From contig NZ_CACWPP010000001.1 in the NCBI RefSeq assembly GCF_902762735.1, positions 1 to 34,612 of the forward strand: DNA of 34,612 nucleotides. The letters are read 5' to 3'. This DNA comes from an uncultured Ruminococcus sp. Lineage in GTDB: Bacteria > Bacillota > Clostridia > Oscillospirales > Ruminococcaceae. Positions 3,893 through 31,375 of this stretch are shown here, piece after piece (the stretch's first letter is position 1; every line of letters begins with the position of its first letter). Under the pieces are notes generated by a model that saw only the letters and a program-made list of their open reading frames with translations, was not told where the DNA came from and made no database searches. The position numbers were made by a program, and so were the translations under genes.

Positions 3893-4002
3893 ATGATAAA
3901 CCTCCTTATGTTATATGCTTTACTTTTTGGATTCATTTGCATTATTATCGTTTTCATACGCAACACCTCTTTCACGTTCGTAGCCGATTTATGTTAGTGA
4001 TG

Positions 4003-4031: not shown

Positions 4032-4076
4032 TAAAAACACCATAGTATTTCTGACTTGAGATCAGAAATACTATGG
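4032..4076 (-). terminator. Intrinsic terminator of pnkp
   Basis: A perfect 15-pair stem (4040-4054 with 4062-4076) with a 7-base loop. On the minus strand it is followed by GTTTTTATT. It lies 70 bases after the pnkp stop. Confidence 0.85.
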
Positions 4077-4146
4077 CTTAATACTTCTATATCAGCGCCG
4101 CATATATAAGCCACGCCGTTTTGCATTCAAAATATCTATCCGAATA

Positions 4147-6720: not shown

Positions 6721-6801
6721 TTGTTCATTTCCTTCCGTTGTACTTCGGCTTTTCAGCACCGAACGCCGCGATGATTTCGCTTATCAGCCGAGTATTTATA
6801 T

Positions 6802-9876: not shown

Positions 9877-11052
9877 TTAGTTTACTATGGTTTTCTCGGT
9901 CTCCTTGTCGAATACATGTATCTTGTTCGGGTCAAGGGCAAGGGTGATAGTGCTGCCGTAACGCGCAGTGGTAGCGGCATCTACTTTTGCCGTCCAGTGT
10001 ACTTTCTTGACGTTTGCATAAGCATCATCGGTGAACTGGCGCTGTATCTCGGCAGGCTTCTCATTCAGCAGGTTGAAGTACAGCAGGACTTCCGAACCCA
10101 GCAGTTCATAACCGTTGACAGTCACCTCTATCTTGCAGTCATCAGGGAATACAGACATCGCGTGTTCGCTCTCGAATATCTTCTCGGGGCGTATGCCCAT
10201 GATGACTTCCTTGCCGATGTAGCCGCCGTTTCTCAGCGCATCGCCCTTAGGCTTCGGCAGTTTTATGCTGAACTTGTCAAAATCAAGGCATACATCATCG
10301 CCCTCAGCGCGGCATTCAGCGTTTACAAAGTTCATCTGCGGCGAACCGATAAAGCCTGCCACAAAAAGGTTATCGGGCTTATTGTAAAGGTCGCGCGGAG
10401 ATGCCACCTGCTGTATCACACCATCTTTCATAACAACGATACGTGTGCCCAGTGTCATAGCTTCGGTCTGGTCGTGAGTAACGTAGATTATGGTAGCCCC
10501 CAGCCTCTGGTGGAGCGCCGATATTTCGGTACGCATCTGCACACGCAGTTTTGCATCGAGGTTTGAGAGCGGCTCGTCCATCAGGAAAACTTTCGGCTCG
10601 CGCACTATGGCACGCCCCATCGCAACTCTCTGGCGCTGACCGCCCGAAAGAGCCACAGGCTTGCGGTCGAGCAGTTCGCTTAAATCGAGTATTGTTGATG
10701 CATCGCCGACTTTCTTCTTTATCTCATGTTTCGGGGTCTTGCGCAGTTTCAGACCGAACGCCATGTTATCTCTCACCGTCATGTGCGGGTAAAGCGCGTA
10801 GTTCTGGAAAACCATCGCGATGTCGCGGTCTTTAGGCTCAACATCGTTCATTATCTTGCCGTCGATCATAAATTCGCCGTCGGATATATCTTCCAGCCCC
10901 GCTATCATTCTCAGCGTGGTGGATTTGCCGCAGCCCGACGGTCCGACAAATATGATGAACTCCTTATCCTCTATCTCAAGGTTGAAATCCTTGACAGCTT
11001 CAAAGCCGTTGGGGTATATTTTATAGATATGTTTCAAAGACAGACTTGCCAT
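9877..11052 (-). CDS. msmX: MsmX/UgpC-type ABC transporter ATP-binding protein
   Basis: A 391-residue ATPase of CUT1 sugar importers. Walker A GPSGCGKS (37-44), Q-loop Q83, signature LSGGQ (135-139), Walker B VFLMDE (155-160) and the switch H193 are all intact. The C-terminal third (from about 235) is the TOBE regulatory region typical of UgpC/MsmX/MalK proteins. It works at the inner face of the membrane, docking on permease EAA loops. It is the only ATPase gene in an operon with two permease pairs, so it probably energises both, as MsmX does for several importers in Bacillus (established knowledge; the application here is inference). ATG 11052 has AGGAGGG 6 bases upstream. Last gene of the operon, 14 bases after the GH43 gene. 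Confidence 0.95.
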   Translation of the reverse strand: MASLSLKHIYKIYPNGFEAVKDFNLEIEDKEFIIFVGPSGCGKSTTLRMIAGLEDISDGEFMIDGKIMNDVEPKDRDIAMVFQNYALYPHMTVRDNMAFGLKLRKTPKHEIKKKVGDASTILDLSELLDRKPVALSGGQRQRVAMGRAIVREPKVFLMDEPLSNLDAKLRVQMRTEISALHQRLGATIIYVTHDQTEAMTLGTRIVVMKDGVIQQVASPRDLYNKPDNLFVAGFIGSPQMNFVNAECRAEGDDVCLDFDKFSIKLPKPKGDALRNGGYIGKEVIMGIRPEKIFESEHAMSVFPDDCKIEVTVNGYELLGSEVLLYFNLLNEKPAEIQRQFTDDAYANVKKVHWTAKVDAATTARYGSTITLALDPNKIHVFDKETEKTIVN

Positions 11053-11066
11053 TACAGACCCTCCTA

Positions 11067-12029
11067 TTAGTTGTCGGTTACATTATCAAAGCTGAACACA
11101 GGCTTGCCATCGACCCATTTTATCGGCATCAGCATCGCGTGCCTGTTGGGGTCGTAAAGCGGGTCACCCACTATCTCAGCGTAAGTCCTTGCGTGGTAGA
11201 CCAGTATATCTCTGCCCTCACTGTCGGTGGTAAAGGAGTTATGACCCGGTCCGTAGACTTCCCTGCTGCGGTCGGTCTTTAATACAGGGTATCTTTCCTT
11301 AGTCCAGCTTCTCGGGTCGAGCAGGTCGGCATTCTCGTCAGCCGTCAGCATGCCCATGCAGTATGCTTCGCCTGTATCACTGGCTGAATAGGTCAGGAAT
11401 ATCTTGCCGCCGCGCTTTATCACCGCAGGTCCTTCGTTCACCCAGAAACCGTGTCGCTCCCAGTCATAGTCGGGAGTGGTCAGCAGTACCTGTACGGTAT
11501 CGAGAGTATATCCGTTCTTCATGCGGGCTATGTAGAGGTTTGAGATCATCTTGCCGACACCGACTTTCTCAGCCCATACATAGTAATTCACACCGCCGCA
11601 TTCAAACACAGTAGCGTCCAGCGAGAACGCTTCACATGCGAACTCGTCCTCCTCAGCGCGGGTCATCTTGCCCTTTTCGACCCACTCGCCTGTCATCGGG
11701 TCATCACCCTGACATTCCAGCACGTATGGACGTATCTTCCATATATCCTCCACCTCGCCGCCTGCAAAGTAGATGTACCATTTGCCGAATACATAATGCA
11801 GTTCGGGTGCCCAGATATGCTTGCTCATAGGACCGTTCGGGTGGCAGTTCCAGATGACTTTTTCCTCCGCATCGGGCAGGGCTGAAAGGCTGTCTGCCCT
11901 GCGCAGCACTATCCTGTCATATTCGGGCACAGAGGCTGTGAAGTAATAATTTCCGTCAGTGTGGCGGTAAACATACGGGTCAGCCCTCTGCAATATCCAG
12001 GGTCTGTTGAAGATCAGTTTCTCGTCCAT
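11067..12029 (-). CDS. Cytoplasmic GH43 family glycosidase, probable alpha-L-arabinofuranosidase
   Basis: A 320-residue single-domain GH43 five-bladed propeller with no signal peptide, so it acts inside the cell on imported oligosaccharides. The three catalytic acids are visible: general base D17 (LQRADPYVY), pKa modulator D138 (FSLDATVF) and general acid E199 (WVNEGPAV), with HIWAPELHYV and YGPGHNSF as the other family signatures. It lacks any carbohydrate-binding module. Alpha-1,2/1,3 or 1,5-arabinofuranosidase activity is the likeliest given the locus, but beta-xylosidase is possible since GH43 includes both. It has an AAGGAA site upstream and follows a strong hairpin pair that separates it from the LamG lipoprotein gene. 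Confidence 0.9.
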   Translation of the reverse strand: MDEKLIFNRPWILQRADPYVYRHTDGNYYFTASVPEYDRIVLRRADSLSALPDAEEKVIWNCHPNGPMSKHIWAPELHYVFGKWYIYFAGGEVEDIWKIRPYVLECQGDDPMTGEWVEKGKMTRAEEDEFACEAFSLDATVFECGGVNYYVWAEKVGVGKMISNLYIARMKNGYTLDTVQVLLTTPDYDWERHGFWVNEGPAVIKRGGKIFLTYSASDTGEAYCMGMLTADENADLLDPRSWTKERYPVLKTDRSREVYGPGHNSFTTDSEGRDILVYHARTYAEIVGDPLYDPNRHAMLMPIKWVDGKPVFSFDNVTDN

Positions 12030-12070
12030 AACATCAAAATTCCTTTCGTGATCTTATCGTCGCGGTGTAT

Positions 12071-12133
12071 CCACTTTTCGGGGGACATAAACAGCCTTTA
12101 TGTCCCCCGAAAAGTGGGGCTTTTCAGCCCCAC
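12071..12133 (-). other. Two overlapping, mutually exclusive hairpins between operon genes
   Basis: A perfect 21-pair stem (12071-12091 with 12097-12117, loop 5) overlaps a 7-pair GTGGGGC/GCCCCAC stem (12114-12120 with 12127-12133). They share 12114-12117, so only one can form fully. On the minus-strand transcript the small hairpin comes first and is followed by TTTT, then the long stem. This could be a partial terminator, an RNase barrier that stabilises upstream binding-protein mRNA, or a switch between the two. Confidence 0.75.
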
Positions 12134-12146
12134 ACGGCTATCAGCG

Positions 12147-13196
12147 TTATTCAGCTGCGGTCGGTGAAGGTGCGACCGGTGATTCAGGCGGATTGCCCTG
12201 CTCGAACAGTCCCTTTACCATGCCGTCAGTCAGCGCATCATCATATACATAGAACTCGTCTATGAAGCCCTTGTAAACGGTATCCCAGTAGTTGATGCCG
12301 ATATGACCCTCAGTGTTCTCACCTGCGAATATCTCAGGCGAAAGACCCTGATAGTACATGTTATCAGCGTTAGCGTCCCACATCAGCTCGCCGTTGATAT
12401 AGAACTTTGTCTGTATTCTCTCCATGCCGTCATCAGCGGTATATGTCTTGCCGTCAGCAACTACCGTTACCATGCACCATTCACGCTTGCCATGTTCCAT
12501 ATCGTCCATAGCGTAGATCCAGGGCCATACGCCATCCTCTGATACTTCTGTGCCGAGTGACGAGTTTCTGTTCCATGCCACAGGGAAGATAGCTGCGCTG
12601 TCAGTGCCCCAGTCAGTCTTGGTGAAGTTGATCCAGGTAACAGGTGTTGACTCGTTATTTGCCATGCCGATATTTCTGCCCATCTGTACAACAGGTCCGA
12701 AAGAAGCAACACGGTCAGCATTGAGCCAGAAAGAAATAGTATAGCTGTCATCGTCGATCTCAGGCATATCAAAGTCTACGCCGTACTTACCGTCAATGTA
12801 CAGCGAGTTGCCGACAGCGCCCTGACCCTCTGCGATCATTATCTCATGTGTGCTGTCCTGGATACCGAAGCTGGCACCTGTCAGCGCACCGACCTGTTCT
12901 GTCTGCTCAACAGCTTTCAGACCTGATGCGTCCTCAAAGCCGAGATATACCAGTGGTTTAGCTGTGATAGCCTCTGCTTCGACAGCTGAGGGTGCATCTT
13001 CAGCAGCAGACTCAGCAGGTGCAGCATCGCTGCCTTCTTTCGCATCTTCGGCTTTGCTTGTTTCAGCACTGTCATCAGCCTGTGCAGCTGTTGTTGTGGT
13101 CGTCTTTTCGGATGAGCTGCTGCTTTCGTCGCTGCCGCATGCTGCCAGTGACATAGTCAGAACAAGTGCAGCTGTCATTGCTAAAAACTTTTTCAT
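12147..13196 (-). CDS. Secreted lipoprotein with LamG/concanavalin-like domain
   Basis: A 349-residue lipoprotein. A signal peptide ends in the lipobox SLAAC (C20). A low-complexity Ser/Thr/Ala/Glu linker (about 21-80) then leads to one jelly-roll domain (about 85-335) with LamG-type phrases: LVYLGFEDASG, NSLYIDG, YTISFWLNAD, KFYINGEL and FIDEFYVYDDAL. Domains of this type bind carbohydrates in many secreted proteins. No catalytic motif is seen. I start at ATG 13196 because AAGGAG lies 6 bases upstream and the signal peptide begins there. It directly follows the solute-binding protein gene, so it may capture or present glycan for that importer (inference). Confidence 0.85.
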   Translation of the reverse strand: MKKFLAMTAALVLTMSLAACGSDESSSSSEKTTTTTAAQADDSAETSKAEDAKEGSDAAPAESAAEDAPSAVEAEAITAKPLVYLGFEDASGLKAVEQTEQVGALTGASFGIQDSTHEIMIAEGQGAVGNSLYIDGKYGVDFDMPEIDDDSYTISFWLNADRVASFGPVVQMGRNIGMANNESTPVTWINFTKTDWGTDSAAIFPVAWNRNSSLGTEVSEDGVWPWIYAMDDMEHGKREWCMVTVVADGKTYTADDGMERIQTKFYINGELMWDANADNMYYQGLSPEIFAGENTEGHIGINYWDTVYKGFIDEFYVYDDALTDGMVKGLFEQGNPPESPVAPSPTAAE

Positions 13197-13210
13197 GGTA
13201 AACTCCTTTC

Positions 13211-13233
13211 TGTTTTGCTCATACGGCAAAACA
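13211..13233 (-). other. Hairpin just upstream of the LamG lipoprotein ribosome site
   Basis: TGTTTTGC (13211-13218) pairs perfectly with GCAAAACA (13226-13233). On the mRNA it sits directly before the AAGGAG site. It may mark a processing or translation-control point inside the operon. Confidence 0.4.
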
Positions 13234-13312
13234 CAAACATATTATATATTACCGGCTCTGATGCGGCATATATACGTCCTTTCTCCTGCTGCCGCAGTCT
13301 CAGCCCATAGTG

Positions 13313-14932
13313 TTACTGATTGTCAGTCACCATCTGCTGGTACTCTGACTGCTCAGACTCACTAAGTACATTATAGCCTGTTGGACCGAAATAGTCAAGC
13401 ATTGCCTGAGCATGATAGTAATTTGCCTTGCGATTTGCTTCATCAACATAGTCAGCCGCCTGTGCTGTGCCGTTGTCAACGAGGTCGTGGATACCGATGG
13501 AGTTGAAGTATTCATCGCAGAAATTCCAGTAGCCTGCAATATTTGTCCAGCCGTAGGAGATAGGCTGCATGCAGGAGTTGAAGTAATCTCTCCACAGCTG
13601 AACATGCTCATCGTCCATACCTGCGCAGAATACCTCTATATATGCGTCCCATACGCCCTGATCCTTAGTGATCGGCACAGGCATGACATCATATTTCAGT
13701 GCAGTGCCCGAAGCGTTGGTGATGCTCTCATCGCCGTATATCTCGCATCTGGTATGCCAGCCGTCTACACCGAAGGACATGAACTTCAGCAGTTCGTAAG
13801 CCTCACGGGGATATGCGCAGCTGGTGGTTATTCCGCCGTAGTCGATAGTAGCTATGGAGTGGTGATCTGAGCCCGCATCGGCATCTGATACAGCAGGGAT
13901 AACATAAGGCACGATGTCCATGTTGAAGTTCTCCTTGTAGCCTGGAGTGTTCCAGGTATTCTGGAAAGTCCAGAAAGCCTCAGTGAATACTGCGCAGTGG
14001 CTCGATGCACCTGCCCAGCCTTCCCAGTCGCCCATCCAGTCCTCCATAGCCTGTGTCTCGGTCTGAGGAGCTATGTAGCCGCCGAGTTTCAGGTTTGAGA
14101 ACTCCTGCTCGCCTATCGCCCATTCGCTCAGGTCGAAGGTCTTGCCTGTAAAGCCGAACTCACCGATAATATCCTGTCTTGCGGCTATGCCGTAGTATGA
14201 ATCAAGTCTGTTATAATATCCCAGACCGTAGTAAGCCATACCGTCAGGCGAGTTGAGAACTGTTGCGTCCTTGATGAGCTGTATCATATCAGACCATTTC
14301 CACTGCTGTGTAGGTATCTCAAGGTTCAGTGTCTTTAAAACGTTTCTGTCAACGAACACAGCACTGGGAAAGAACTTTACAGGCACGCTGTAACGCTGAC
14401 CGCCCTCAAGGTGGTATGTGCCCAGCTGAGCGGAATTGACTGTATCAGCGAGTCCTTTTGTCTCATCATCGCTGTTCCAGTAGCTTGAAATATCAGCCAG
14501 TAACTGGTTGGACAGTGCATAGTCGCAGTCAGAGTGCATGATGATGTCGGGAGTCTCGCCGTTGCTTACCAGTGTACCCAGTGTGGTGTTATAGTCAGCT
14601 ACCTTCTCGAACTTGACATTTACGTGGATATTTGGATATATCTGCATAAATCTTTCAGCCAGCCGCTGAACGGTTTCGTCCTGATCGAAGTGGAAGTAGG
14701 TCAGCTCGATCTCCTGGTCTGTGATGTCCTTAGCCTTCTTGTACTCGTAGCTGCTGCCGTCAACAGTAACGCTCTCGTACTCGTTGCTTACGGTATCAGC
14801 AGCAACATAGCCCTCTACCGCAGGCTTTGCACCGCCGCCGCCTCCGTTGCCGCTGCCGTTTCCGCCGCAGCCTGCGAACGATGCAAGTGTCAGACAAAGT
14901 GCTGCGGTCATTGCAAAAATCTTCTTTTTCAT
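13313..14932 (-). CDS. ABC transporter extracellular solute-binding lipoprotein (family 1)
   Basis: A 539-residue periplasm-equivalent sugar-binding lipoprotein. The signal peptide ends with SFAGC (lipid-modified C22), followed by a Gly/Asn-rich linker. The mature part has the family 1 SBP pattern: ELTYFHFDQDETVQRLAERF, then YPNIHVNVKFEKV, TPDIIMHSD, and VPVKFFPSAVFVDRNVLKTLNLEIP. It is longer than the usual 420-450 residues and rich in Trp/Tyr, which fits an oligosaccharide ligand. ATG 14932 has AAAGGAGG upstream. It lies directly after the second permease pair, so it most likely serves that pair. The arabino-oligosaccharide ligand is inferred from the locus only. Confidence 0.93.
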   Translation of the reverse strand: MKKKIFAMTAALCLTLASFAGCGGNGSGNGGGGGAKPAVEGYVAADTVSNEYESVTVDGSSYEYKKAKDITDQEIELTYFHFDQDETVQRLAERFMQIYPNIHVNVKFEKVADYNTTLGTLVSNGETPDIIMHSDCDYALSNQLLADISSYWNSDDETKGLADTVNSAQLGTYHLEGGQRYSVPVKFFPSAVFVDRNVLKTLNLEIPTQQWKWSDMIQLIKDATVLNSPDGMAYYGLGYYNRLDSYYGIAARQDIIGEFGFTGKTFDLSEWAIGEQEFSNLKLGGYIAPQTETQAMEDWMGDWEGWAGASSHCAVFTEAFWTFQNTWNTPGYKENFNMDIVPYVIPAVSDADAGSDHHSIATIDYGGITTSCAYPREAYELLKFMSFGVDGWHTRCEIYGDESITNASGTALKYDVMPVPITKDQGVWDAYIEVFCAGMDDEHVQLWRDYFNSCMQPISYGWTNIAGYWNFCDEYFNSIGIHDLVDNGTAQAADYVDEANRKANYYHAQAMLDYFGPTGYNVLSESEQSEYQQMVTDNQ

Positions 14933-14996
14933 AAGATCCTCCTTTGATAAACTCAGTTCATTTTCTGCTTTTATGTTTTCCTTTTTATATTTCGGT

Positions 14997-16019
14997 CTAT
15001 TCGCCTGTGATACCTGTTCTGTCGATACTCTCGACGAAGTGTCTCTGGAGAACGAAGTACAGTATCATCAGCGGCAGTATACTCAGCAGAGTACCTGCCA
15101 TATTTATCGACTCATTAAGATCAGTTGCCGCGTTGGTGGCTGTCTGCTGGTAGCTCGAATAGTTATCGGAGAAGTTATCCAGCTGTATCACCAGCGTTGT
15201 CCAGTTTGAATCGCCGTAGATGCCGTGTACGTACAGTTCTGTCAGATAAGACTCGTTCCAGTACCACACGAAAGAGAACAGCGCCACTGTTATGAATGCG
15301 GGTGCTGCGCTGGGCAGTGCCACTTTGTAGAATGATTTGAAGTATCCCGCGCCGTCAATTCTCGAAGCCTCTATCAGCACTTTCGGTATCTGGCGGAAGA
15401 ACTGCCGGAATATCAGTATGAATATCGGTGCATTGAAGCCCTGACCGAACAGTGCGGGCAGTACGAACGCCCATATGGTGTTCTGTATGCCGAGATTTGA
15501 GTAAAGCACGTAGGTCGGTATCATAGTTATCTGGCTGGGCAGAACAAAGCTCAGTATAATGATGCCCATGACTATCTTTTTTCCCGGGAAATCAAATCTT
15601 GCAAGACCGTAGCCGATCACAGAACAGGACAGCAGATTGCAGATAGTCGGCACACCTGCCAGCACCACGCTCTGCCACAGTGCCCGCCAGAAATCCATGC
15701 TGGCGGCAGCCTGCCTGAAATTTTCGAGGTTGAAGGAACTTGGCAGCCATTTGATGGAAGAGTCGAGCAGGTCATCAAGGGTCATCAGACTGCTTGAGAT
15801 CATGTGGAGTATTGGGTACAGATAGATAAACCCGATACAGATCAGCAGTGCGTAGACCGAAAACTGTTTCAGAAATCCCTCGCGGTCCTTAGTGCCCATC
15901 ATAATGCGGCGTACCTTGTCTTTGGTAATGCGCTGAGAGAGGGGCTTAGTAGTCGCTTCGGCTTGTGGTATGTGTTGTGATCTTTCCTTTCGCTCTTTGC
16001 TTTTCGATCCTCTTGGCAT
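14997..16019 (-). CDS. Carbohydrate ABC transporter permease, MalG-type (second pair)
   Basis: A 340-residue inner-membrane permease with a charged N-terminal extension of about 48 residues, longer than usual, then about six membrane helices starting at YALLICIGFIYLYPILHM. The EAA loop EASRIDGAGYFKSFYKVALP docks the ATPase. CUT1-type, partner of the following overlapping permease. The start at ATG 16019 has AAAGGAGG 10 bases upstream, giving a 74-base overlap with the previous gene. ATG codons within the overlap-free part (MMGTKD) would give a more typical length but lack such a ribosome site. The C-terminus ends in RTGITGE. Confidence 0.92.
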   Translation of the reverse strand: MPRGSKSKERKERSQHIPQAEATTKPLSQRITKDKVRRIMMGTKDREGFLKQFSVYALLICIGFIYLYPILHMISSSLMTLDDLLDSSIKWLPSSFNLENFRQAAASMDFWRALWQSVVLAGVPTICNLLSCSVIGYGLARFDFPGKKIVMGIIILSFVLPSQITMIPTYVLYSNLGIQNTIWAFVLPALFGQGFNAPIFILIFRQFFRQIPKVLIEASRIDGAGYFKSFYKVALPSAAPAFITVALFSFVWYWNESYLTELYVHGIYGDSNWTTLVIQLDNFSDNYSSYQQTATNAATDLNESINMAGTLLSILPLMILYFVLQRHFVESIDRTGITGE

Positions 16020-17034
16020 TTCGGCTGTTCCTCCTTTCTATCCTCTTTAAGTTTCTCGCCTCTTTCTTCTTCAGCTTCTTGCTGCGCTTTACCTGCTTTT
16101 CGTACTGATCTTTTCTCGTCGTCAGCAGCAGTGTGAAAAGTCCCACCAGAAGCAGTACCACCACCGAGTACAGCCAAGCCATCGCAGATGCGTAGCCGTA
16201 GCCTTTCTCTTTTGTGCCTGAGAACATCGAATTCTGTATCAGCACTATTATGGGGTTCTGACTGTTTGAAGAGATGAAAACGATGGTATAGATGGTATTG
16301 AGCAGTATCATCGACTTCAGGTTCGGCAAAGTTATCTTCCAGAAGCATTCCCAGCCCGAACCGCCGTCTATCTTTGCAGCCTCGTACATCGACTTGTCTA
16401 TCTTTTGCAGACCCGACAGGAAAATGAGTATCTGCACGCCCGAATACCAGAGGGTCGTTATCATGTTGCTGAAAACATCCGAGATAGGCTTTGCCAGCAT
16501 CGAAGGCAGGACCGAACCTATCGCCGCAGTCAGCGACTGGACATCTATCGCAGAGATACTGCCTGCGCCCTCAGCCGTCAGCATTTTAAGTATAGGGCCG
16601 CTGACGATTATGACGGGCAGGAAGAATATCAGCCGGAAGAAGCCCTTGCCCTTTATCCGCATGTTCAGCATCATCGCTATCAGCAGTGCGAACACCACTA
16701 TGATAGGCGTTGAAAGTATGGTCGAAGTCAGATAATCGACCAGCTGTACAAGGAAATCGGGGTCTTGTATGAGTATCTGTGTGAAGTTTCCCTTACCGAC
16801 AAACGTGAACACTCTGCCGAGCGGAGTTATACGGATATTGTTCAGTGCATACCAGAATGAACTTATCAGCGGATATGCAAGAAATACGCCCGCACCGATA
16901 AACCAGGGTATCATAAACAAATATCCCATGCGGGCATATCGTTTTTCGAGCTTGCCCGATCTGAGATGTTTCATGCGCTCTTTCAGCGCTTTCTTTTCTT
17001 TTCGGGTCAGTTTAGTCGTTTCTGCCATGTTCAC
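15946..17034 (-). CDS. Sugar ABC transporter permease, MalF-type (second pair), with basic tail
   Basis: A 362-residue CUT1 permease with about six membrane helices (first at LFMIPWFIGAGVFLAYPLI) and EAA loop EAAKIDGGSGWECFWKITLP. After the last helix (ending LFTLLLTT) there is an unusual cytoplasmic tail of about 55 residues that is extremely Lys/Arg-rich (for example KRSKKLKKKEARNLKRIERR). The tail's coding sequence overlaps the next gene by 74 bases. The start is GTG 17034, overlapping the previous TGA as GTGA, or ATG 17028, both with GAGGAAA upstream. The tail might bind phospholipid head groups, RNA or the neighbouring Yip1-like protein's cytoplasmic face; this is speculation. Confidence 0.92.
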   Translation of the reverse strand: MNMAETTKLTRKEKKALKERMKHLRSGKLEKRYARMGYLFMIPWFIGAGVFLAYPLISSFWYALNNIRITPLGRVFTFVGKGNFTQILIQDPDFLVQLVDYLTSTILSTPIIVVFALLIAMMLNMRIKGKGFFRLIFFLPVIIVSGPILKMLTAEGAGSISAIDVQSLTAAIGSVLPSMLAKPISDVFSNMITTLWYSGVQILIFLSGLQKIDKSMYEAAKIDGGSGWECFWKITLPNLKSMILLNTIYTIVFISSNSQNPIIVLIQNSMFSGTKEKGYGYASAMAWLYSVVVLLLVGLFTLLLTTRKDQYEKQVKRSKKLKKKEARNLKRIERRNSRNAKRIEKQRAKGKITTHTTSRSDY

Positions 17035-19292: not shown

Positions 19293-21330
19293 GTCTGTAT
19301 ACCCCCTCACCGAAGAGTGCGTAGATGAACTCAAATACCTGAGCCCACAAAACGTAGATCATGAATATCAGCAGTGCCAGTATCAGCGCCGCGAATGCTG
19401 TCAGGAAGATTACCTTGAAAGTCTGCCCCATCGTGAAGTTATTGACCTCTTTAAGACCGATGACTGCTATCACAGCTATCCAGCCGTAGGTCAGTATGCT
19501 GACCATAGTGGTCAGGAATATCTCATTATTTGTCAGCACATGTGACAGTATATAGACTATGGGCATGAACACTATGTAAGGCATAAGGCTGTAACAGAAG
19601 AATGTGTATATCTTCTTGACAGTGCCCTCGCCCTCGTTTATGGTGCATACCAGATAGGTGCAGGCAGTCAGTGCGATGATACCGATGATGATAGTGCCTA
19701 TATCGCTCATTATCTCGTATCTGCCTTCCATGACTGTCTTTGCGAGGAAGCCGCAGGTGTACTTGCCTATAACGAATTCAGCTATGAATATCACAAGCAG
19801 GAATGTGGAAGCCGCCCAGTTGTCACGCCCCTCAGCGGCGATGCCGTAAGCACCGTCAGAGGGCTTCTTCATAAAGTAGCCCGCATACGCCACATCTGAA
19901 ACGAAACTCTTTTTCCTGAACTTCTTTAACGCCTTTTTCTGTTTTTTGAATATCTGTTTTTTGCCGTCCAGCGTTTTCAGCACCCTGACAGCTATGACCA
20001 GCAGTACTATGACCAGTATCAGCGTCATTACATTGTTTTTCAGCCAGACGTTCCTTATCTCCCAGAAAGCGTCGGAATAGCCCGAATAGTCCTTAGCGAG
20101 CCTTGCATAGCGGAGTGCTTCCTTGTAGTTCTCCTCCCGAAAAAGGCATCTGCCCATCGCTTTGTTGGCGTAGTCGAACATCGAGTTCATTTTGAGTATC
20201 TTTGTCAGCGGTTCTTTCGCATCTGTATATCTGCCCTTTGAGTAGAGGTACAGTGCGCTGTGGAGCAGATCGGTGAACTCTGTCGGTTCATAGACCTGCA
20301 CCTGTGCCTTGTCTGAGTCGAGAACGAAGATCCTGTCCTCAGAGTCTATGGCGATACCGCTGACCATCGTTGACAGCCCCACGCGCTGTGTGCCGTCATC
20401 AGGTCCGCCGAACACGAAAAGCATCTCGCCCTCATTGTTGTACTCGAAGATATAGCCCTGCTGGTCAGCCACATACACGTTATCGTGGTTGCCTGCCGCC
20501 ACAGCCGACGGAGTATCGGCGTATGTCCTGTCGTGATTGCTTATCATGTTTGTGCCTGCGATATTCAGGCGCTTGAGGGTATCTGTTTCGTTGCCGCGTG
20601 TGACAGTGAATATCAGACCCTTTTCATCTATCGCCAGATTTGTAGGCGTTGCGGGGATATTGCTGACCATCTTTGCACGCTGCTCATCGGTCAGGATAGC
20701 CCTGTAAATTACAGTTTTAAGATCAGTCGCCGCATAGTTCGTACCGAAATAACCGAGAAATGTGCCGCCGTCGGTGGGCGAGATCTCAACTATGCCGTTG
20801 GTGTTCGACTCGCACACCACGAACATTATGCCCGCGTCGTTAACAACTATCTTTATGGGCAGAAAGGAAACTTCGTCGCCGTAAAGAGGGCTTTTCGGCT
20901 TGCCGTACTCGTTTATAAGAGCGCCGTCACTGCCGAAGATGAATATCTTGCCCGCATCACGGTCAGCCACATAAACATCGCCGTTTTCTGTGACATACAC
21001 TCCGCGCGGATCTTTAAGTGTACCCTGTCCGATGACTTTCACCAGTCCACCATCGGGTGTGCCTACGACTATCCTGGCGTTGCCCGAGTCGGCTATGTAG
21101 ATAAGCCCGTCCTCTGACAGGCATATGTCGCTCGGTTCTGCCAGCGCTTCGTCATCGAACTTTGTGATGGTGGCATAAGCGAGGTAAGCCGACTGTGTCT
21201 GCCTTATCTGACCGTAGCCGTCGATGGTGTAGGTCACATATGGGGTGTCTGCGAGGGCTGTGACAGGCAGCATCATTATACAGATGACTGCAAGCACCAG
21301 CGCCGACGCAAGGCGTTTCAGCTTTTGCAT
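19282..21330 (-). CDS. NHL-repeat / TPR / Yip1-like multi-domain membrane protein
   Basis: A 682-residue three-part protein. Residues 1-27 are a Sec signal or signal anchor (ALVLAVICIMMLPVTALA). Residues 40-350 are NHL propeller repeats (DGLIYIADSGNARIVV, NGDVYVADRDAGKIFIF, DNVYVADQQGYIFEYN, DRIFVLDSDKAQVQVY). Residues 355-425 are TPR-like helices (ALYLYSKGRYTDAKEPLTKIL). Residues 434-450 are a membrane helix, followed by a very basic cytoplasmic stretch (458-475) and a Yip1-like bundle of about five helices (505-675). The propeller and TPR would be outside, the basic loop inside. It lies between permease genes of two importers. No enzyme motif is visible; a scaffold or sensor that ties surface proteins to the transporters is inference. 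Confidence 0.88.
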   Translation of the reverse strand: MQKLKRLASALVLAVICIMMLPVTALADTPYVTYTIDGYGQIRQTQSAYLAYATITKFDDEALAEPSDICLSEDGLIYIADSGNARIVVGTPDGGLVKVIGQGTLKDPRGVYVTENGDVYVADRDAGKIFIFGSDGALINEYGKPKSPLYGDEVSFLPIKIVVNDAGIMFVVCESNTNGIVEISPTDGGTFLGYFGTNYAATDLKTVIYRAILTDEQRAKMVSNIPATPTNLAIDEKGLIFTVTRGNETDTLKRLNIAGTNMISNHDRTYADTPSAVAAGNHDNVYVADQQGYIFEYNNEGEMLFVFGGPDDGTQRVGLSTMVSGIAIDSEDRIFVLDSDKAQVQVYEPTEFTDLLHSALYLYSKGRYTDAKEPLTKILKMNSMFDYANKAMGRCLFREENYKEALRYARLAKDYSGYSDAFWEIRNVWLKNNVMTLILVIVLLVIAVRVLKTLDGKKQIFKKQKKALKKFRKKSFVSDVAYAGYFMKKPSDGAYGIAAEGRDNWAASTFLLVIFIAEFVIGKYTCGFLAKTVMEGRYEIMSDIGTIIIGIIALTACTYLVCTINEGEGTVKKIYTFFCYSLMPYIVFMPIVYILSHVLTNNEIFLTTMVSILTYGWIAVIAVIGLKEVNNFTMGQTFKVIFLTAFAALILALLIFMIYVLWAQVFEFIYALFGEGVYRLGN

Positions 21331-21346
21331 ATTCCCGATGCCCCCC

Positions 21347-22213
21347 TTACTTGATGCCTGAACTTGCCATCGTGTTCATTACCTTATTCTGTAAGATTAT
21401 AAAGAGTATCAGGTTCGGCAAGAACATTATCAGCGAGGCTGCGGCAGACATGCCCTGACCTGCGACTGTATTGTTCACATTGACAAGGGTGTTCATGTAG
21501 AATGTCAGCGTTTTCATGCTGTCATCGCTGAAGAAGTAGCTGGAAGTTTCCATGTTAGTCCACACCTGCTGGAATACCAGTATGGATGCTGTCGCAACTG
21601 CGGGTCTTATCATAGGCATGATGACTTTCAGGTAAACATCGAGGTCGGTCGCACCGTCCATGTAAGCCGCCTCAAGCAGTGAATCTGGCACCTGCTCAAC
21701 GAACTGCTTTACCAGAAACAGTGCCACAGGCATCGCCACCAGCGGCAGAACGTGTGCCAGCAGGTTATCTATCAGCCCCAGCTGACAGATAACGAGGTAT
21801 CTCGGTATCAGCACTGCGGTGCTGACGAACATGATAGCTATCTGGTTTATACGGGTCAGCATATTGCGTCCCTTGAACTTTATCTTTGCCAGCGCGAATG
21901 CCGACATCGTGGTAAGCAGCAGTGCCATGCCCACTGTTAAAAGTGTTACCACTATGCTGTTGAACAGGTAGCGGCTCAGCGGTATGCCGCCTGAATTTGA
22001 GAAGCGGATCAGCTTGGTGAAATTTTCAAGCGTTGCTCTTCTCACGAAAAATGTTGGCGGGAACGCGAACAGCTCTTCCATCGGCTTAAAAGCGTGGTTG
22101 ATGATAAAAACTATCGGCATGCCCATGAATATGACCAGCGGAAGTATCAGAAGAATTATCTTTAGCTGACCTATCTCAAATTTCTTGGGATTTATCTTTC
22201 TGCCCTTATTCAT
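21347..22213 (-). CDS. Carbohydrate ABC transporter permease, MalG-type (first pair)
   Basis: A 288-residue permease of standard length with about six membrane helices (first at [20 protein letters not shown]) and EAA loop [23 protein letters not shown]1 family. The start ATG overlaps the upstream permease stop by 8 bases (ATGAATAA) and has a GAGGAAG run upstream, so the pair is translationally coupled. It most likely forms a heterodimer with the preceding permease and takes substrate from the large CBM-SBP fusion protein. Confidence 0.94.
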
Positions 22214-23195
22214 CTTCCTCTTCCACTCCTTTCTTGCCGTAGGGGTCTTTGTCGGTGAGCAGCATATCAGCTCCCTTGCTGAAGAACTGCACTATAAGCA
22301 GCAGCACAACAGATATAGCCGCCGCATAACCCATCTCGTAACGCAGGAAACCGTAGTCCTCGATGTGGTTGACAAGCAGCTGTGAGGCGTATCCCGGTGA
22401 GGGGTTGCCCACCAGCATCGAAGTTATCATACCGTTCTGGAAAGCGCCTACTATCGCCATAACTGCGGCGAAGAGCATCTGCGGCTTCATCTGGGGTATG
22501 GTGATATAGATCATCTCCTGAAAACGGTTTGAAACGCCGTCGATAGATGCCGCCTCGTAAAGCGAAGCATCTGTGTTGAGTATACCTGCTATCATGCTGA
22601 GGAAGCCGATACCCATTGACGACCACAGACCGATAATAATAACTATCGGCAGCAGGAAGCGGGTGTCTGTCAGCCAGATGACAGGTTCGGTTATAACGCC
22701 CAGTTCCATCAGCCAGCTGTTGAGAAGCCCCGACTGGTCGCCCGAGAAGATGACCTTCCACAGAACCGTCATAGCAACGCCCGTTGTCATACTGGGCGAA
22801 TAGAGTATCAGCGCAAAGACAGTCCTGACGGGCTTTGTCAGGTTGCACAGCGCCCACGCCAGCAGGAAGGACAGCACATAGCCGCCTATACCTACGACCA
22901 CCGCATATATTATCGTGTTGGGCAGCACATACTTCATAAATTCCGCATCATTCGTGAGTATGGTTATGTAATTTAGGAAACCCACGAATTTCGGGAACTG
23001 TATGGCATTGAAGTTAGTGAAGGACAAGATGACCGCAAGGATAACAGGGATCAGTATGAAGATCGAAAAGATCAGCGCATAAGGTCCGATGAACAGCCAG
23101 CCATGCCAGTTGTTTTCGCGGCGGGAGATCTTGTTCCGCTTCCTTCGTGTTTTTATCTTATTTGTTTCTTCTGTTTTATTAGCTTGTAATGCCAT
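22206..23195 (-). CDS. Sugar ABC transporter permease, MalF-type (first pair)
   Basis: A 329-residue permease with a basic N-terminal tail ([10 protein letters not shown]), about six membrane helices (first at [20 protein letters not shown]) and EAA loop [21 protein letters not shown]. It starts 14 bases after the large SBP gene with an AGGTGA site, so it is cotranscribed with it. Its acidic C-terminus (GVEEEDE) is in clear contrast to the basic tail of its counterpart in the second pair. Confidence 0.94.
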
Positions 23196-23209
23196 TGATT
23201 TTCACCTGA

Positions 23210-26167
23210 TCAATTTCTACCAAGTATCACCTTGATGCTTTCAATATCGGGGATAACGTAATCTTTAACTGTGTTGCCCTCGCTGTCGGTGTAGCCGAAT
23301 TCTTCCAGCTTTCGGTCGATCTCGCGGTTTATGACCTTTACCGCTTCGTCTATGCGCGAGCGGGCGTTGTCACCGTCAACGACTATCGAGTTGAATGCGT
23401 TGGACATCTCGCGTTCCAGCATGTAAGTACCGGGTACGCGGGCAACATCAACAACGTTCTTTGCAAATTCAAGCACTACCTGCTTGTGGGCATTGTCCAT
23501 CGGCAGCTGAGCAAAGGCTTCCACATTCGCGGTCGTCCACATATACTCATCGCCGTAGGTTATCTGAATGGTCTGACCGAACTCAGCCTGAACTTCGGCA
23601 GATGACCACCACTTCACGAACTCCCACGCTTTCTGCTGGCGCTCATTATCGCTCTTGAAAATGACTGTCGATTCAGCACAGCCGCAGGTGCTTCTGTCTA
23701 TTGTGCCGTCAGCCTGTTCTGTACCAGGAACTACCTTTATATCCCACGAACCTGCCAGTTCGGGAGCGGCGTTGCTTATAAGGTTATATGTGCCGTAATC
23801 GCAGATACCTATTGGTATATCGCCGTTTCTGAAATGCTGATAGAAGTTGTCGATGTCAACGGGCATATCATAAACGGTGAACAGGTCGGTCAGCTGAGTG
23901 AAGCCGTTTACAGATGCCTCACTTCCCAGCGTAGTGCCTTCCTGCGCAGTACCTGAGTAGAGCGCACCGCCGTTCTGCACCAGCAGGGGTGTCGTGCCGT
24001 GAAAGTTCCTCATGGCTCTCATGCCTGCTGTGGGGTAGTAGAAGTTCAGACCTCTCATCTGGAGTTCGGGCAGCATGTCTATCACGTCCTGCATGGTGTC
24101 GGGTGCTTCGATACCCAGCTTATCCAGCACATCTGTCCTGTACACCAGCACCCAGAAGTTCATTGTTTCGGGCATCGAGTACACCGAATCACCGATAGTT
24201 CCCGTCAGGAAAAATCCAGGCTCGTAGGCAGATGCGGTCTGCCTGAAATCATCATACTGTGCCATATCTACCAGAGCGCCTCTTATAGCCAGCTCATAAG
24301 GGATAGTGTAGTTTATGCCCGTAGCCACATCGGGCGCGTTGCCCGATGAATTTGCCAGCACCAGCTTATACTGGTCGGGCATTATGCTTATATCGACATC
24401 TATGCCCGTTTCGGGGGTAAAGTATTCGTCTATCATCTTCTGCATCACCTGAACGTACTGGCTTGAGCGGTTGACCCACACCTGTAAATGCTCAGGCTCG
24501 ATATTCGATGCAGAGTAAGATCTGTCAAAGAATGATGCAAAGAAGCGCCTAATGTTCAGCCATATCGTTTTGAAGAATCCAGGTGCTTCGGGAAGTTGGG
24601 CATCTTCCTGATACACCCACACCCTGTCTATCGAAAGACCGTTTTCAAGCAGCAGGTCGATGGTGTTGGCGAGATACTGGTTAACGGAGTTTGTGCCCGA
24701 AGTCAGCTCACCGATACGGTAGGGTATCTCATCGGGGTTTTCTGCCAGCGACTTCAGCTGATTTGCCGCTATCAGCATCGAAGACATCACCGCAACGTTC
24801 CTGTTGTTCACAGTGAAGTGCCTAGCGCTCGATTCAAGCGCTGTCAGTTCATCGGCGTAGCTGTTTAGTGTATCCTCCAGACCCAGAATGTATCTTGACA
24901 GTTTCAGATCCCTGTACTTGTCTGAATTTGTGCCTGCGACTTTTGTTATCTCCAGCGAGAGGTCGTTGACACCTGCCATTATCTCTTCCACCGACTCGAT
25001 GACATAGCATATCGGGTCAAGGGTGATCGTGTAAGTCAGTGTATGCTGACCTTTTTCAAGATACACCGACAGCTTTTCATGGCTGTCATCTGTCATGGTG
25101 CTTACCTTGTAGTTGCTGCAATAATCCAGCTGATAAGCCTGATAAGCGGTGTTTGGTATCTTTCCGTCAACCGCCACATCAACAAAAACAGGGAAATCGT
25201 TCTTGTCGGACTGGCGGTAATTCATCGCTATATAATAGTTGCCCGCCTGCTCCACATCAAAAGTGTAGCTTACGCTCTGCCCTGCCGTGTCGAATGCTTC
25301 ATGGTCGATGGTATTGAGTTCCGAATCCTGCACCTTGTAGGGTGTTACTCTGGGGTCTACCTCCGCGATGGCGTGTACCGATGACTCGTTGGAAAATGAA
25401 TAGTCCTCACCCTCGATCTCTATCAGCGCACTGCCAGATGCCGCAGACGTACCTTTGTATTCTTCAACGCTCTCAGGTGAAGAAAGTGTCATGCCGCCCA
25501 GCAGGAAACTGCCGCTCTTCACCGAGATGCCTATATCGTGGCTGCCCGCTTTCAGCTGTAACAGCAGCGCATCCGAATGACGGTAGCTGCTGTCTTTGAA
25601 ATAGCTGTGTTCCCACTGTATCAGCTTATCGGGTACTGTCACCACTTCATCGTTATATCTGTCAACTGAGGTCTCCGCTTTGGGCACCCATGTTGATCTC
25701 AGTTCAACGCTGCGGCTTTCGTAGAAGGGGTATTCACCGTCCACCGACATCGCAAACTCTATGGGCAGCACCGAATCATCGTATGAAAGATGATCAAAGC
25801 TGACCGCATAAAGACCGTCCTGCGGCACATTTAATTTAAGTGTGATCTCATCGCCCGCCGCTGCATCTATTACGCATTCAGCCTGCGTGAAGCCTTTTGT
25901 GTCGGAAGTCAGTTTTCCGCCGCTTGCTGAGGAAAATGGGAAGAACAGGTCGCCGCCCGAATATTTTGACAAAGTGTAGCCGCTGCTCACGCCCGTATAA
26001 TTATCGGATATACGGTCGCTCTTGAACTGTGTATAAGCCGCAGATGTTCCCACTGCGGCAGCATTATCCGCCGTTACAGCAGCATCGGGTATAGCTGCAA
26101 GCAGTGTCACTGCCAGCGCCAGAGAAAGGATCTTCGTCAGCCTTCTCCTTGTATTCCTTGCACCCAT
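23210..26167 (-). CDS. Large secreted fusion: carbohydrate-binding-like modules plus ABC solute-binding domain
   Basis: A 985-residue protein, about twice a normal solute-binding protein. A Sec-type signal (basic MGARNTRRR, then LSLALAVTLLAAIP) has no lipobox cysteine. Two beta-sandwich modules follow, about 60-230 and 250-400, with CBM6/35-like phrasing (IEIEGEDYSFSN, AGNYYIAMNYRQS, LEKGQHTLTYTI). A helical linker (about 410-560) contains an aromatic/basic stretch (FFKTIWLNIRRFFASFF). The last about 410 residues are a family 1 SBP (YFTPETGIDVDISIMPDQY, PDVATGINYTI, WVLVYRTDVLDKLGIEAPDT). I start at ATG 26167 because AAGGAGG is 5 bases upstream. How it stays at the cell without a lipid anchor is unclear; the aromatic stretch may insert in the membrane. 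It precedes the first permease pair. Confidence 0.88.
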   Translation of the reverse strand: MGARNTRRRLTKILSLALAVTLLAAIPDAAVTADNAAAVGTSAAYTQFKSDRISDNYTGVSSGYTLSKYSGGDLFFPFSSASGGKLTSDTKGFTQAECVIDAAAGDEITLKLNVPQDGLYAVSFDHLSYDDSVLPIEFAMSVDGEYPFYESRSVELRSTWVPKAETSVDRYNDEVVTVPDKLIQWEHSYFKDSSYRHSDALLLQLKAGSHDIGISVKSGSFLLGGMTLSSPESVEEYKGTSAASGSALIEIEGEDYSFSNESSVHAIAEVDPRVTPYKVQDSELNTIDHEAFDTAGQSVSYTFDVEQAGNYYIAMNYRQSDKNDFPVFVDVAVDGKIPNTAYQAYQLDYCSNYKVSTMTDDSHEKLSVYLEKGQHTLTYTITLDPICYVIESVEEIMAGVNDLSLEITKVAGTNSDKYRDLKLSRYILGLEDTLNSYADELTALESSARHFTVNNRNVAVMSSMLIAANQLKSLAENPDEIPYRIGELTSGTNSVNQYLANTIDLLLENGLSIDRVWVYQEDAQLPEAPGFFKTIWLNIRRFFASFFDRSYSASNIEPEHLQVWVNRSSQYVQVMQKMIDEYFTPETGIDVDISIMPDQYKLVLANSSGNAPDVATGINYTIPYELAIRGALVDMAQYDDFRQTASAYEPGFFLTGTIGDSVYSMPETMNFWVLVYRTDVLDKLGIEAPDTMQDVIDMLPELQMRGLNFYYPTAGMRAMRNFHGTTPLLVQNGGALYSGTAQEGTTLGSEASVNGFTQLTDLFTVYDMPVDIDNFYQHFRNGDIPIGICDYGTYNLISNAAPELAGSWDIKVVPGTEQADGTIDRSTCGCAESTVIFKSDNERQQKAWEFVKWWSSAEVQAEFGQTIQITYGDEYMWTTANVEAFAQLPMDNAHKQVVLEFAKNVVDVARVPGTYMLEREMSNAFNSIVVDGDNARSRIDEAVKVINREIDRKLEEFGYTDSEGNTVKDYVIPDIESIKVILGRN

Positions 26168-26184
26168 TGTGTCCTCCTTAGAAA

Positions 26185-26264
26185 ATGTGGTCATCCCGCT
26201 GATACACCATAATAATAGGTGTTATCCGGCACTTACAGTCGGTGTGCTAAAGAGATGACCATAT
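26185..26264. repeat. MITE-like inverted-repeat element, copy B
   Basis: An 80-base element with 24-base imperfect terminal inverted repeats (26185-26208 and 26241-26264, 17 of 24 match), sharing ends and the core AATAA-x3-TGTTAT-x-CGG with copy A (6802-6985). It lies inside the operon between the small membrane protein gene and the CBM-SBP gene, ending about 7 bases before that gene's ribosome site. It can fold into a hairpin in the mRNA. No clear target duplication. Confidence 0.6.
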
Positions 26265-26274
26265 AGTAAAATGC

Positions 26275-26586
26275 TCAGTAATAGAATTTTCTGTGTACCA
26301 GTATGCCCGCATAAGCGGCTGAACTGATACCGCAAAGAACGCCCGCGTAGATAAGCAGCCTTACCAGCGTGACTTTCCAGACATTTAGCAGAAGTATCGA
26401 AAGCAGGAGCAGCATAGCCGCCCAGTAAATGTACAGGAAAGCCGTCCCGCAAAGCCACTTGAACACCGTCTTTGATGTGTCAATGGCTATCTCCTTTTTT
26501 GTCATGCCTGCGTAGTAAGGATTTATCCTGCGCCTGAACCCCTCGCGGGGCGGCTTTCTTTTAGGGGAAACTTCCTCATTCGGCAT
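26275..26586 (-). CDS. Small two-helix membrane protein
   Basis: A 103-residue protein with a basic, proline-rich N-terminal half (KRKPPREGFRRR) and two membrane helices (about residues 45-67 and 72-95), so both ends are probably cytoplasmic. I do not recognise the family. ATG 26586 overlaps the end of the GH43 gene by 11 bases with GGGGTG 7 bases upstream, a coupled start. An upstream ATG at 26610 lacks support. Small membrane proteins next to CUT1 importers can be transporter accessory subunits, but there is no direct evidence here. Confidence 0.75.
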   Translation of the reverse strand: MPNEEVSPKRKPPREGFRRRINPYYAGMTKKEIAIDTSKTVFKWLCGTAFLYIYWAAMLLLLSILLLNVWKVTLVRLLIYAGVLCGISSAAYAGILVHRKFYY

Positions 26587-30445: not shown

Positions 30446-31294
30446 TTAATACTCAGCTTTGACAGAAGTTCTGTACTCAGACGGTGACTGCCCCTCACAG
30501 CTTCGGAAACAGCGCGTAAAATAAAGAGGATCGCTGTAACCGACAGCATTTGCGACCTCGCGCACAGGCATGATGGTGGAGCGAAGCAGATAACAAGCCC
30601 GCATCATACGGCATTTTGTATGATACTGCTGCATCGTCTCACCGCGCTCGGATTTGAACACTGCCGCCATACGCTTGTAGCTGAGAAAAAATTCCTTTTC
30701 CAGTCTCGCCGCAGAAAACGGCTCTGTACAATGTGCGCCAAGCCATGCGCAGATGCGATCTGACAAGCGCGGAGAGCTTTTATCGCTAAACCTGACCAGT
30801 GCTATCTCAGTAAGCAGGCTCTGGAGCATGGTGTTTATGCGAAGCCTTTTATAAGGGTCTTTACCGCAGCTGTAACACACCATCTCTGTGAACAGCTTGT
30901 GTATCTGTCCGTTTTTTGCCACACTTATCTGCTTTGGCAAAACTGTTTTCAGCTCAACTCGCTCGTCCGTGCCAATAGGGTCAGCATCGGGCATAAAATC
31001 AGGCTGAGCTTCATCAGGCTCATCTAAATAAAAATGAGCATAGTACCACTTTGTCCCTCGTGAGATCATCTTTTTGCCAAAATGGTGCATCCCCTTTTTC
31101 AGGAACAGCAGTTCACCCTCGCCAACTTCATAGTCAATGTCGCCTTCGGTGACATACATCCTTCCCTCGACCACATATATAATGACATTGAAATCCGGTG
31201 TTCTTTCTATATGGCAATATGGTTCTGTCAGCGCGATATAGTCACAGCCGCACATAACAGGCTGTCTCATTGTTGATAAAACGATCTCGTTCAA
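30446..31294 (-). CDS. AraC-family transcriptional regulator of the arabinan locus
   Basis: A 282-residue regulator. The N-terminal half is a cupin-type sensor (NVIIYVVEGRMYVTEGDIDYEVGEGELLFLKKGMHH) and the last about 95 residues form two AraC helix-turn-helix units (FSAARLEKEFFLSYKRMAAVFKSE, then PVREVANAVGYSDPLYFTRCFRSCEGQSPSEYR). I start at TTG 31294 because GGAGG lies 6 bases upstream; the open frame extends to 31375 but that part overlaps the promoter. It is placed between the abfA-araA genes and the long operon, so it most likely senses arabinose or an arabino-oligosaccharide and controls one or both (inference). Confidence 0.92.
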   Translation of the reverse strand: MNEIVLSTMRQPVMCGCDYIALTEPYCHIERTPDFNVIIYVVEGRMYVTEGDIDYEVGEGELLFLKKGMHHFGKKMISRGTKWYYAHFYLDEPDEAQPDFMPDADPIGTDERVELKTVLPKQISVAKNGQIHKLFTEMVCYSCGKDPYKRLRINTMLQSLLTEIALVRFSDKSSPRLSDRICAWLGAHCTEPFSAARLEKEFFLSYKRMAAVFKSERGETMQQYHTKCRMMRACYLLRSTIMPVREVANAVGYSDPLYFTRCFRSCEGQSPSEYRTSVKAEY

Positions 31295-31346
31295 GATAAT
31301 CCTCCATATCATCAAGTGTATTGTCCATTGACTTTTTACTGATAAC

Positions 31347-31375
31347 ATTATAATATGTATGTATAAATTTGTCAA
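31347..31375 (-). promoter_or_regulatory. Consensus sigma-A promoter of the AraC regulator gene
   Basis: On the minus strand, TTGACA (31375-31370) and TATAAT (31352-31347) spaced by 17 bases. Start near 31340, leader about 46 bases. Confidence 0.85.

Follow-up and report, generated by a model that had tools for sequence, protein, structure and literature searches.

Why would a single operon carry two complete CUT1 permease pairs, a solute-binding protein (SBP) beside each, only one ATPase, and further membrane proteins between the pairs? The question is posed by the minus strand of a 34,612-nt stretch from an uncultured Ruminococcus sp. (contig NZ_CACWPP010000001.1, positions 1–34,612; assembly GCF_902762735.1), the whole of which we call the window. 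The genes concerned fall into two modules: SBP1 with the permeases F1 and G1 (module 1), and an NHL-TPR protein, a Yip1 membrane domain, the DUF5696 protein and the permeases F2 and G2 (module 2). The original prediction, made from the letters alone, had taken them for a surface machine that captures, holds and imports large arabino-oligosaccharides. The observed gene arrangement is confirmed: each open reading frame (ORF) was found at unchanged coordinates in the ORF list of the window, all four permeases match BPD_transp_1 and have an EAA coupling loop (by eye), both binding proteins match SBP_bac and stand near a permease pair of their own, and ABC_tran together with OB_MalK occurs in one protein only. 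The arrangement is far beyond chance, and the first interpretation is partly supported. The view we lean towards is that SBP1-F1-G1 and NHL-TPR/Yip1/DUF5696/F2/G2 form one composite glycan importer, which serves arabinan here.

A Recurring Cassette and Its Gene Order

We searched for DUF5696 (PF18952) in 398 genomes of the phylum, scoring at most three candidates per genome (46 genomes with a match, 39 over the cut-off), and in 148 genomes of the family (57 and 55, respectively). Strong matches (E ≤ 1e-50) occupy at least 112 distinct places in 80 genomes, and the surroundings were read for 98 of the 112, the window included; the 14 places outside this survey are in three genomes of one genus (G323, G344, G204) or are partial or on short contigs for the most part (eleven places). 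The counts exclude two weak relatives (L158, L159) and a stretch with no recognized DUF5696 (L160). Loci were labeled with profiles built on the window proteins, and permeases were assigned to F1 or F2 and to G1 or G2 by best score.

The recurring order is SBP1–F1–G1–NHL(TPR)–Yip1–DUF5696–F2–G2. NHL/Yip1 lies directly upstream of DUF5696 in 96 of the 98 loci, and the other two (L117, L143) stop at a contig edge. The accessory genes are not found mostly far from sugar importers: F2 adjoins DUF5696 on the downstream side in 96 loci, and the F2-G2 pair does so in 95. SBP1-F1-G1 stands upstream in 70 loci and solely downstream in four. NHL and Yip1, fused in the window, give two adjacent matches (separate genes) in 53 loci and one match, or none at contig edges, in 45. 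Directly after F2-G2, SBP2 is present in 66 of the 80 closest loci, 71 of which have any gene at that place. The original statement that similar DUF5696-YIP1-permease sets recur in Firmicutes is borne out, with Butyrivibrio fibrisolvens and Paenibacillus cellulosilyticus as two named examples among the Bacillota. The closest named genome is that of Ruminococcus albus 8 (97% identity over DUF5696, in a scan that may omit the window's own genome), and a second copy of the cassette is present in the window's own genome (contig C5, locus L246).

Two side observations concern the spread and divergence of the cassette. The same set stands on a contig labeled as an Anaerolineaceae metagenome-assembled genome (L227): either the cassette has truly spread into a second phylum, or the contig was binned wrongly. 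A single scan for viral carriage gave no relative. Over 70 loci the mean identity is 0.52 for F1 and 0.47 for G1, against 0.41 for both F2 and G2, despite varying neighbor enzymes, and the task of module 1 may be the more general one.

Both Modules Share a Phylogenetic Profile

Modules 1 and 2 share a phylogenetic profile, as judged from three markers in the same genome draws: DUF5696 (E ≤ 1e-50), the NHL-Yip1 profile A8 and the SBP1 N-terminal profile A7 (both E ≤ 1e-20). Among the 148 family genomes the markers occur in 45, 44 and 45 genomes, respectively, with all three in 44 and at least one in 46; for 45 and 45 genomes with 44 in common the hypergeometric P is 2e-35, a value that ignores the relatedness of the genomes. 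The corresponding numbers among the 398 phylum genomes are 37, 38 and 38, with all three in 36 and a union of 40. One of the four exceptions there, G103, has DUF5696 and NHL-Yip1 with a partial SBP1 N-terminal match below the cut (1.6e-17).

Several observations weigh against a single system. No complete module 1 is present in the stretch read at 24 of the 98 loci; some of these are cut by contig ends or gene calling, and others, such as L073 and L074, have no module 1 nearby. Module 2 is therefore the tighter unit. Markers also occur singly: DUF5696 in G431, at the first bases of a contig of a genome that is 70% complete; the SBP1 N-terminus in G466 (78% complete), G104 and G154; and a partial NHL-Yip1 match in G243. 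Correlations of 0.85–0.95 between the distance matrices of seven protein units over 70 loci, without a housekeeping control, favor a single system only weakly, since correlated distances are to be expected from common descent by itself. Finally, the cassette on a P. cellulosilyticus plasmid (L267) lies among UgpC, LLM-class flavin-dependent oxidoreductases and two extra SBPs, with no annotated glycosidase in 30 kb of a gene table that can be incomplete, and therefore some cassettes may take up something other than a glycan.

These points bear on a rival arrangement, in which two ordinary CUT1 importers would take up different arabinan fragments (e.g., linear and branched) and share an ATPase as MsmX is shared; NHL-Yip1 and DUF5696 would then serve the second importer only, and the first would be a co-regulated neighbor. 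MsmX of Bacillus subtilis drives several sugar importers (excerpts of PMC5730181), and the tightness of module 2 and the separate binding protein near each pair fit this arrangement as well. We consider it possible, if on the unlikely side, as the three markers co-occur in both genome sets with few exceptions, and the order is unchanged at 70 of 98 loci despite differing enzymes, a pattern not expected if importers were paired substrate by substrate. The 24 loci at which module 1 is not complete beside module 2 belong to 16 genomes, and the SBP1 N-terminus is encoded somewhere in all 16; the markers therefore act as one system even where the modules stand apart.

DUF5696 Is Related to GH129 and GH101 Glycosidases

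The AlphaFold2 model of the DUF5696 protein (predicted local distance difference test, pLDDT, 85.5; predicted template modeling score, pTM, 0.86) has its best Foldseek matches among glycoside hydrolases (GH) of family GH129 (5opq, NagBb; template modeling score TMt 0.69–0.76), followed by GH101 and GH36/GH31. A profile of 33 diverse members reaches ZgGH129 at E 2e-10 and NagBb at 9e-7 and 2e-6, and hhalign against four GH129-family proteins gives 99.0% probability and E 8e-18 (a fifth, a broken fragment, was excluded). A narrower alignment, of the window clade (A3), aligned in its C-terminal part only (82%) and had no GH129 match in the PDB, and DUF5696 was the sole hmmscan match of the window protein on its own. 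On these comparisons of fold and sequence, DUF5696 is homologous to the GH129/GH101 glycosidases.

The nucleophile position of GH129 is not conserved. We take the nucleophile of NagBb to be D435, where an aspartate is indeed seen, and its acid/base to be E478. In the column equivalent to the nucleophile an acid (D or E) is present at 10 of 98 loci, and the window has A, in a part of the profile alignment with a one-residue gap; the acid/base-equivalent column holds D or E in 50, with E602 in the window. None of the barrel acids is invariant, and a level of 55 of 98 is attained in just three columns (570, 629 and 665). The tryptophan of a Y.GW..GG motif is kept in 88, and hydropathy predicts an N-terminal transmembrane anchor. 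DUF5696 is thus probably a pseudoenzyme on a membrane anchor that would hold glycan.

If DUF5696 were instead an active glycosidase, anchored in the membrane to trim incoming chains and with its catalytic residues located elsewhere than in GH129, this would account for the clear homology, for the glutamate at 602, and for the acid at window position 570 (D at 84 of 98 loci, E at 4). However, the window and its relatives L110 and L111 have a tyrosine at position 570, the barrel contains no invariant acid, and the nucleophile-equivalent residue of the window is alanine, on a mapping that may be one residue off; activity is improbable on this pattern. As a separate observation, two stand-alone proteins outside cassettes, the weak relatives L158:8297-10216 and L159:9009-10886 (minus strand), match the DUF5696, GH101 and GH129 models together (GH129 below the cut-off in one) and are a possible link between the three families.

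SBP1 and the NHL-Yip1 Protein

SBP1 begins with a signal-peptide-like stretch without a lipobox; a permissive lipobox pattern is found in 14 of 136 long SBP1 homologs versus 68 of 71 SBP2 homologs. Residues 50–570 are modeled by AlphaFold2 (pLDDT 89.9) as β-sandwich domains followed by helices. Foldseek matches to the N-terminal model of the size of CBM35/CBM6 have TMt 0.52–0.76, with the CBM35 structure 2w1w at 0.76; long partial matches, the bulk of the list, were disregarded (TM near 0.2). The modeled β-sandwich region thus appears to consist of CBM35/CBM6-like domains. The helical region behind it contains a conserved stretch at about residues 539–557 with an F..SF pattern, amphipathic by eye, and is followed by a C-terminal sugar-binding SBP domain that matches Lin1841 in the PDB.

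The original prediction described an NHL/TPR/Yip1-like protein. Pfam recovers NHL and Yip1 in the window protein and not TPR; TPR is matched by Pfam in a homolog from the second cassette (L104:12076-13680), and the aligned NHL-Yip1 family has both NHL and TPR matches in the PDB. Hydropathy places segments at residues 7–25 and 433–451 and five past residue 500, with a weak one at 154–172 within the propeller.

Both accessory proteins could instead be sensors or surface attachment proteins that report bound polysaccharide, with transport left to the permeases. An AraC-type regulator stands beside the window operon and a two-component system beside one other cassette, and SBPs can act in sensing (CuaD; excerpts of PMC10384115). 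Such a role is very improbable in our view, given that Pfam finds no cytoplasmic signaling domain in NHL-TPR/Yip1 or DUF5696 and that their fixed neighbors are permeases.

Permease Coupling and Energy Supply

In the survey a relaxed EAA pattern is present in 76 of 77 F1, 75 of 76 G1, 81 of 96 F2 and 95 of 97 G2 proteins, and in the alignment the F2 and G2 misses prove to be altered loops, for example with EVA..EG or with another residue in place of the last proline. A loss of ATPase coupling in module 2, which a strict pattern might suggest (F2 68 of 96, G2 51 of 97), was rejected, the loop being kept in the alignment with variants that include DAA and EVA..EG. The window operon has the features of a CUT1/type I importer: BPD_transp_1 pairs, EAA loops, a sugar-type SBP and a MalK-type ATPase with an OB domain, which falls above the cut-off in the UgpC subfamily of NCBIfam. 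This one MalK/UgpC-type ATPase is presumed to power both permease pairs. That it is single carries little weight, because sugar importers can share ATPases and a MalK-length ATPase match is found in just 8 of the 80 closest loci, in stretches of 4.8–22 kb.

A second branch has a different set of ATPase genes. Thirteen loci were extended upstream, chosen for an ATPase match already visible next to SBP1, and thus describe this branch and not its frequency. In all 13, SBP1 is immediately preceded by a pair of adjoining ATPase genes, with the signature motif SGGE in both in 12 (in L253 one has another match). No such pair is present at four loci extended likewise (L259, L260, L262, L264), and at L263, which is closely related to the window, only one ATPase gene lies upstream of GH43. 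In the window's own second cassette (L246, one of the 13) the ATPases at 3273-4220 and 4213-4983 have ABC_tran without OB_MalK and are thus not of the MalK type. Their nearest NCBIfam match is LolD, a resemblance to LolD/MacB-type ATPases that has two limits: the scores do not reach the LolD cut-offs, and SBP1 and MalFG-type permeases are encoded immediately after. The longer ATPase has a C-terminal MazE/AbrB-like domain, barely over the Pfam cut-off. A Cthe_2159-type carbohydrate-binding protein and a diacylglycerol kinase are encoded beside this cassette.

Glycosidase Neighbors and Cargo

The local operon is of the arabinan type, as first proposed, with three GH43 genes, one of them (26576-28186) nearest AbnB in NCBIfam, below the cut-off. 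Two of the GH43 proteins resemble surface lipoproteins, as does SBP2, and the third GH43 has no signal peptide. GH43 of the window's types occurs at 56 of the 80 closest loci. The set as an arabinan-specific device was rejected, as the wider family adjoins varied glycosidases, including GH95, GH26, GH31, GH5, GH10, GH42 and GH130. We defined the neighbor as the nearest gene downstream of DUF5696 that lies on the same strand, has 180 aa or more and carries none of the core labels; such a gene is present in 74 of 97 loci. Within the 25 of 55 families listed, SBPs account for 23 of these, GH95 for seven, GH26 for three, GH31 and GH5 for two each, and others occur once. Another 101 genes further downstream include GH43 (5), GH26 (4), GH42 (3), GH10 (2) and GH130 (2) and are mostly non-glycosidase by the 25 of 134 families listed, as raw counts without background frequency. 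On the B. fibrisolvens plasmid pNP243 the cassette lies with a two-component system and GH43.

A Model for a Proposed Composite Importer

In the composite importer that we favor, modules 1 and 2 would cooperate at the outer face of the membrane. Surface-anchored endo-arabinanase (the GH43 lipoproteins) would cleave arabinan, and the chain would be held near the membrane by the CBM35-like arms of SBP1 and by DUF5696 as a non-hydrolyzing GH129-fold protein. NHL-TPR/Yip1 would be a membrane scaffold that gathers the capture proteins and the permeases; SBP1 and SBP2 would load the two permease pairs, which one MalK-type ATPase would drive via their EAA loops, and the cytoplasmic GH43 would complete the breakdown of imported oligosaccharides. 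The model draws on gene content, homology, linkage, co-occurrence, the lost nucleophile position, the kept EAA loops and predicted lipoprotein and membrane signals, and from these we infer physical assembly, glycan binding by DUF5696, the scaffold role of NHL/Yip1 and the chain length of the cargo.

A bolder form, tentative and rather unlikely, is a new ABC importer architecture: a single complex in which a propeller-Yip1 scaffold and a pseudoenzyme of GH129 fold would link two CUT1 pairs. The pseudoenzyme would thread or hold the polysaccharide while both pumps pull it inward, energized by one MalK-type ATPase species here or, in the second branch, by a LolD-like pair. Such a complex would be a functional Gram-positive counterpart to SusCD.

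Genes of the Window

Table 1. Features of the arabinan operon and its flanks in the window.
Feature	Position	Strand	Basis
AraC-family regulator, possible operon regulator	30446..31375	-	Pfam; NCBIfam AraC-like, below cut-off
GH43 + AbfB-domain lipoprotein, cell surface	28253..29866	-	Pfam; lipobox by eye
GH43 + GH43_C lipoprotein, endo-arabinanase AbnB-like, cell surface	26576..28186	-	Pfam; NCBIfam NF053746 323 bits, cut-off 750; lipobox by eye
Small protein, two hydrophobic segments, between GH43 and SBP1	26275..26583	-	tblastn
SBP1, 994-aa binding protein	23210..26194	-	Pfam SBP_bac_8/SBP_bac_1
F1, CUT1-type permease, MalF/UgpA side	22206..23195	-	BPD_transp_1; NCBIfam GlcT/UgpA-like, below cut-offs
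G1, CUT1-type permease, MalG/UgpE side	21347..22213	-	BPD_transp_1; NCBIfam UgpE/MalG-like, below cut-offs
NHL β-propeller (+TPR) fused to Yip1 membrane domain	19282..21330	-	Pfam NHL + Yip1
DUF5696, N-terminal transmembrane anchor + GH129/GH101-fold ectodomain (predicted)	17031..19292 (ORF open to 19334)	-	Pfam PF18952, E 4.6e-178
F2, CUT1-type permease	15946..17034	-	BPD_transp_1; EAA loop
G2, CUT1-type permease	14997..16019	-	BPD_transp_1; EAA loop
SBP2, lipoprotein solute-binding protein	13313..14932	-	SBP_bac_1
Lipoprotein, concanavalin/laminin-G-like fold, associated gene of arabinan branch	12147..13229	-	Laminin_G_3
GH43 without signal peptide, probably cytoplasmic	11067..12029	-	Glyco_hydro_43; sequence start
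MalK/UgpC-type ATPase	9877..11052	-	ABC_tran + OB_MalK; NCBIfam NF008653 475 bits, cut-off 432

All four gene overlaps that had been noted were reproduced. Those of F1/G1 (8 bases, 22206-22213) and DUF5696/F2 (4 bases, 17031-17034) follow from the coordinates, and the start codons of the other two were examined. The NHL-Yip1/DUF5696 overlap is 11 bases; the mechanical ORF starts upstream at 19334, and the most likely start, judged from the GAGGGGG before it, is the TTG at 19292. The F2/G2 overlap of 74 bases was considered as a start-codon artifact and this was rejected, since AGGAGG stands before the G2 ATG at 16019.

The small protein between GH43 and SBP1 has tblastn matches in 19 stretches, which are 18 distinct places (L111 and L263 are the same place), and is kept in the arabinan branch. 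The Laminin_G_3-type lipoprotein is matched in 45 of the 80 closest loci. Adjoining the operon on the minus strand is a bacterial Pnkp and Hen1 RNA-repair pair (4147-6759 and 7069-8457; far over the NCBIfam cut-offs), and a protein with a prepilin-type N-methylation motif is encoded at 2268-2912 on the same strand.

Relation to Known Systems and Significance

The cassette resembles CUT1 importers of the MalFGK2 type such as AraNPQ-MsmX of B. subtilis (excerpts of PMC5730181) in its MalF/MalG-type pairs with EAA loops, its SBP_bac_1/8 proteins, its MalK/UgpC-type ATPase and its arabino-oligosaccharide context. Unlike AraNPQ-MsmX, it has two permease pairs, an SBP with CBM-like arms that mostly has no lipobox, and NHL-TPR-Yip1 and DUF5696 in nearly all loci. 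DUF5696 in turn shares fold and detectable sequence homology with GH129 (NagBb, ZgGH129) and GH101; it differs from them in its unconserved nucleophile position, its predicted N-terminal membrane anchor and the importer permease that adjoins it in 96 of 98 loci.

An operon that unites surface enzymes, an ABC importer and cytoplasmic enzymes is also the plan of Gram-positive polysaccharide utilization loci, of which the described ones generally have a single permease pair and a single SBP in each system. Within open-licence PubMed Central full texts, subscription papers and preprints being outside this scope, no paper on DUF5696 was found and no description of the set was recognized, and the eight-part set is apparently undescribed in that literature. 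In the main texts, neither "NHL" nor "Yip1" appears in the R. albus 7 transcriptome paper, which reports four ABC operons induced on cellulose, or in the Butyrivibrio paper (both among PMC4300822, PMC6344614 and PMC8106489). New here are the recognition of DUF5696 as a GH129/GH101 homolog without a conserved nucleophile, the predicted CBM35-like domains of SBP1, and the finding that NHL and Yip1 are often separate genes.

Gut and rumen Bacillota are major fiber degraders, and their uptake of long glycans is less understood than that of Bacteroidota. If the composite importer is real, the cassette would be a general uptake platform reused near many glycosidase sets. It would give DUF5696 and the bacterial NHL-Yip1 proteins a testable role and provide a genomic marker for new glycan loci, and the second branch raises the separate question of whether LolD-like ATPases are able to drive permeases of the CUT1 type.

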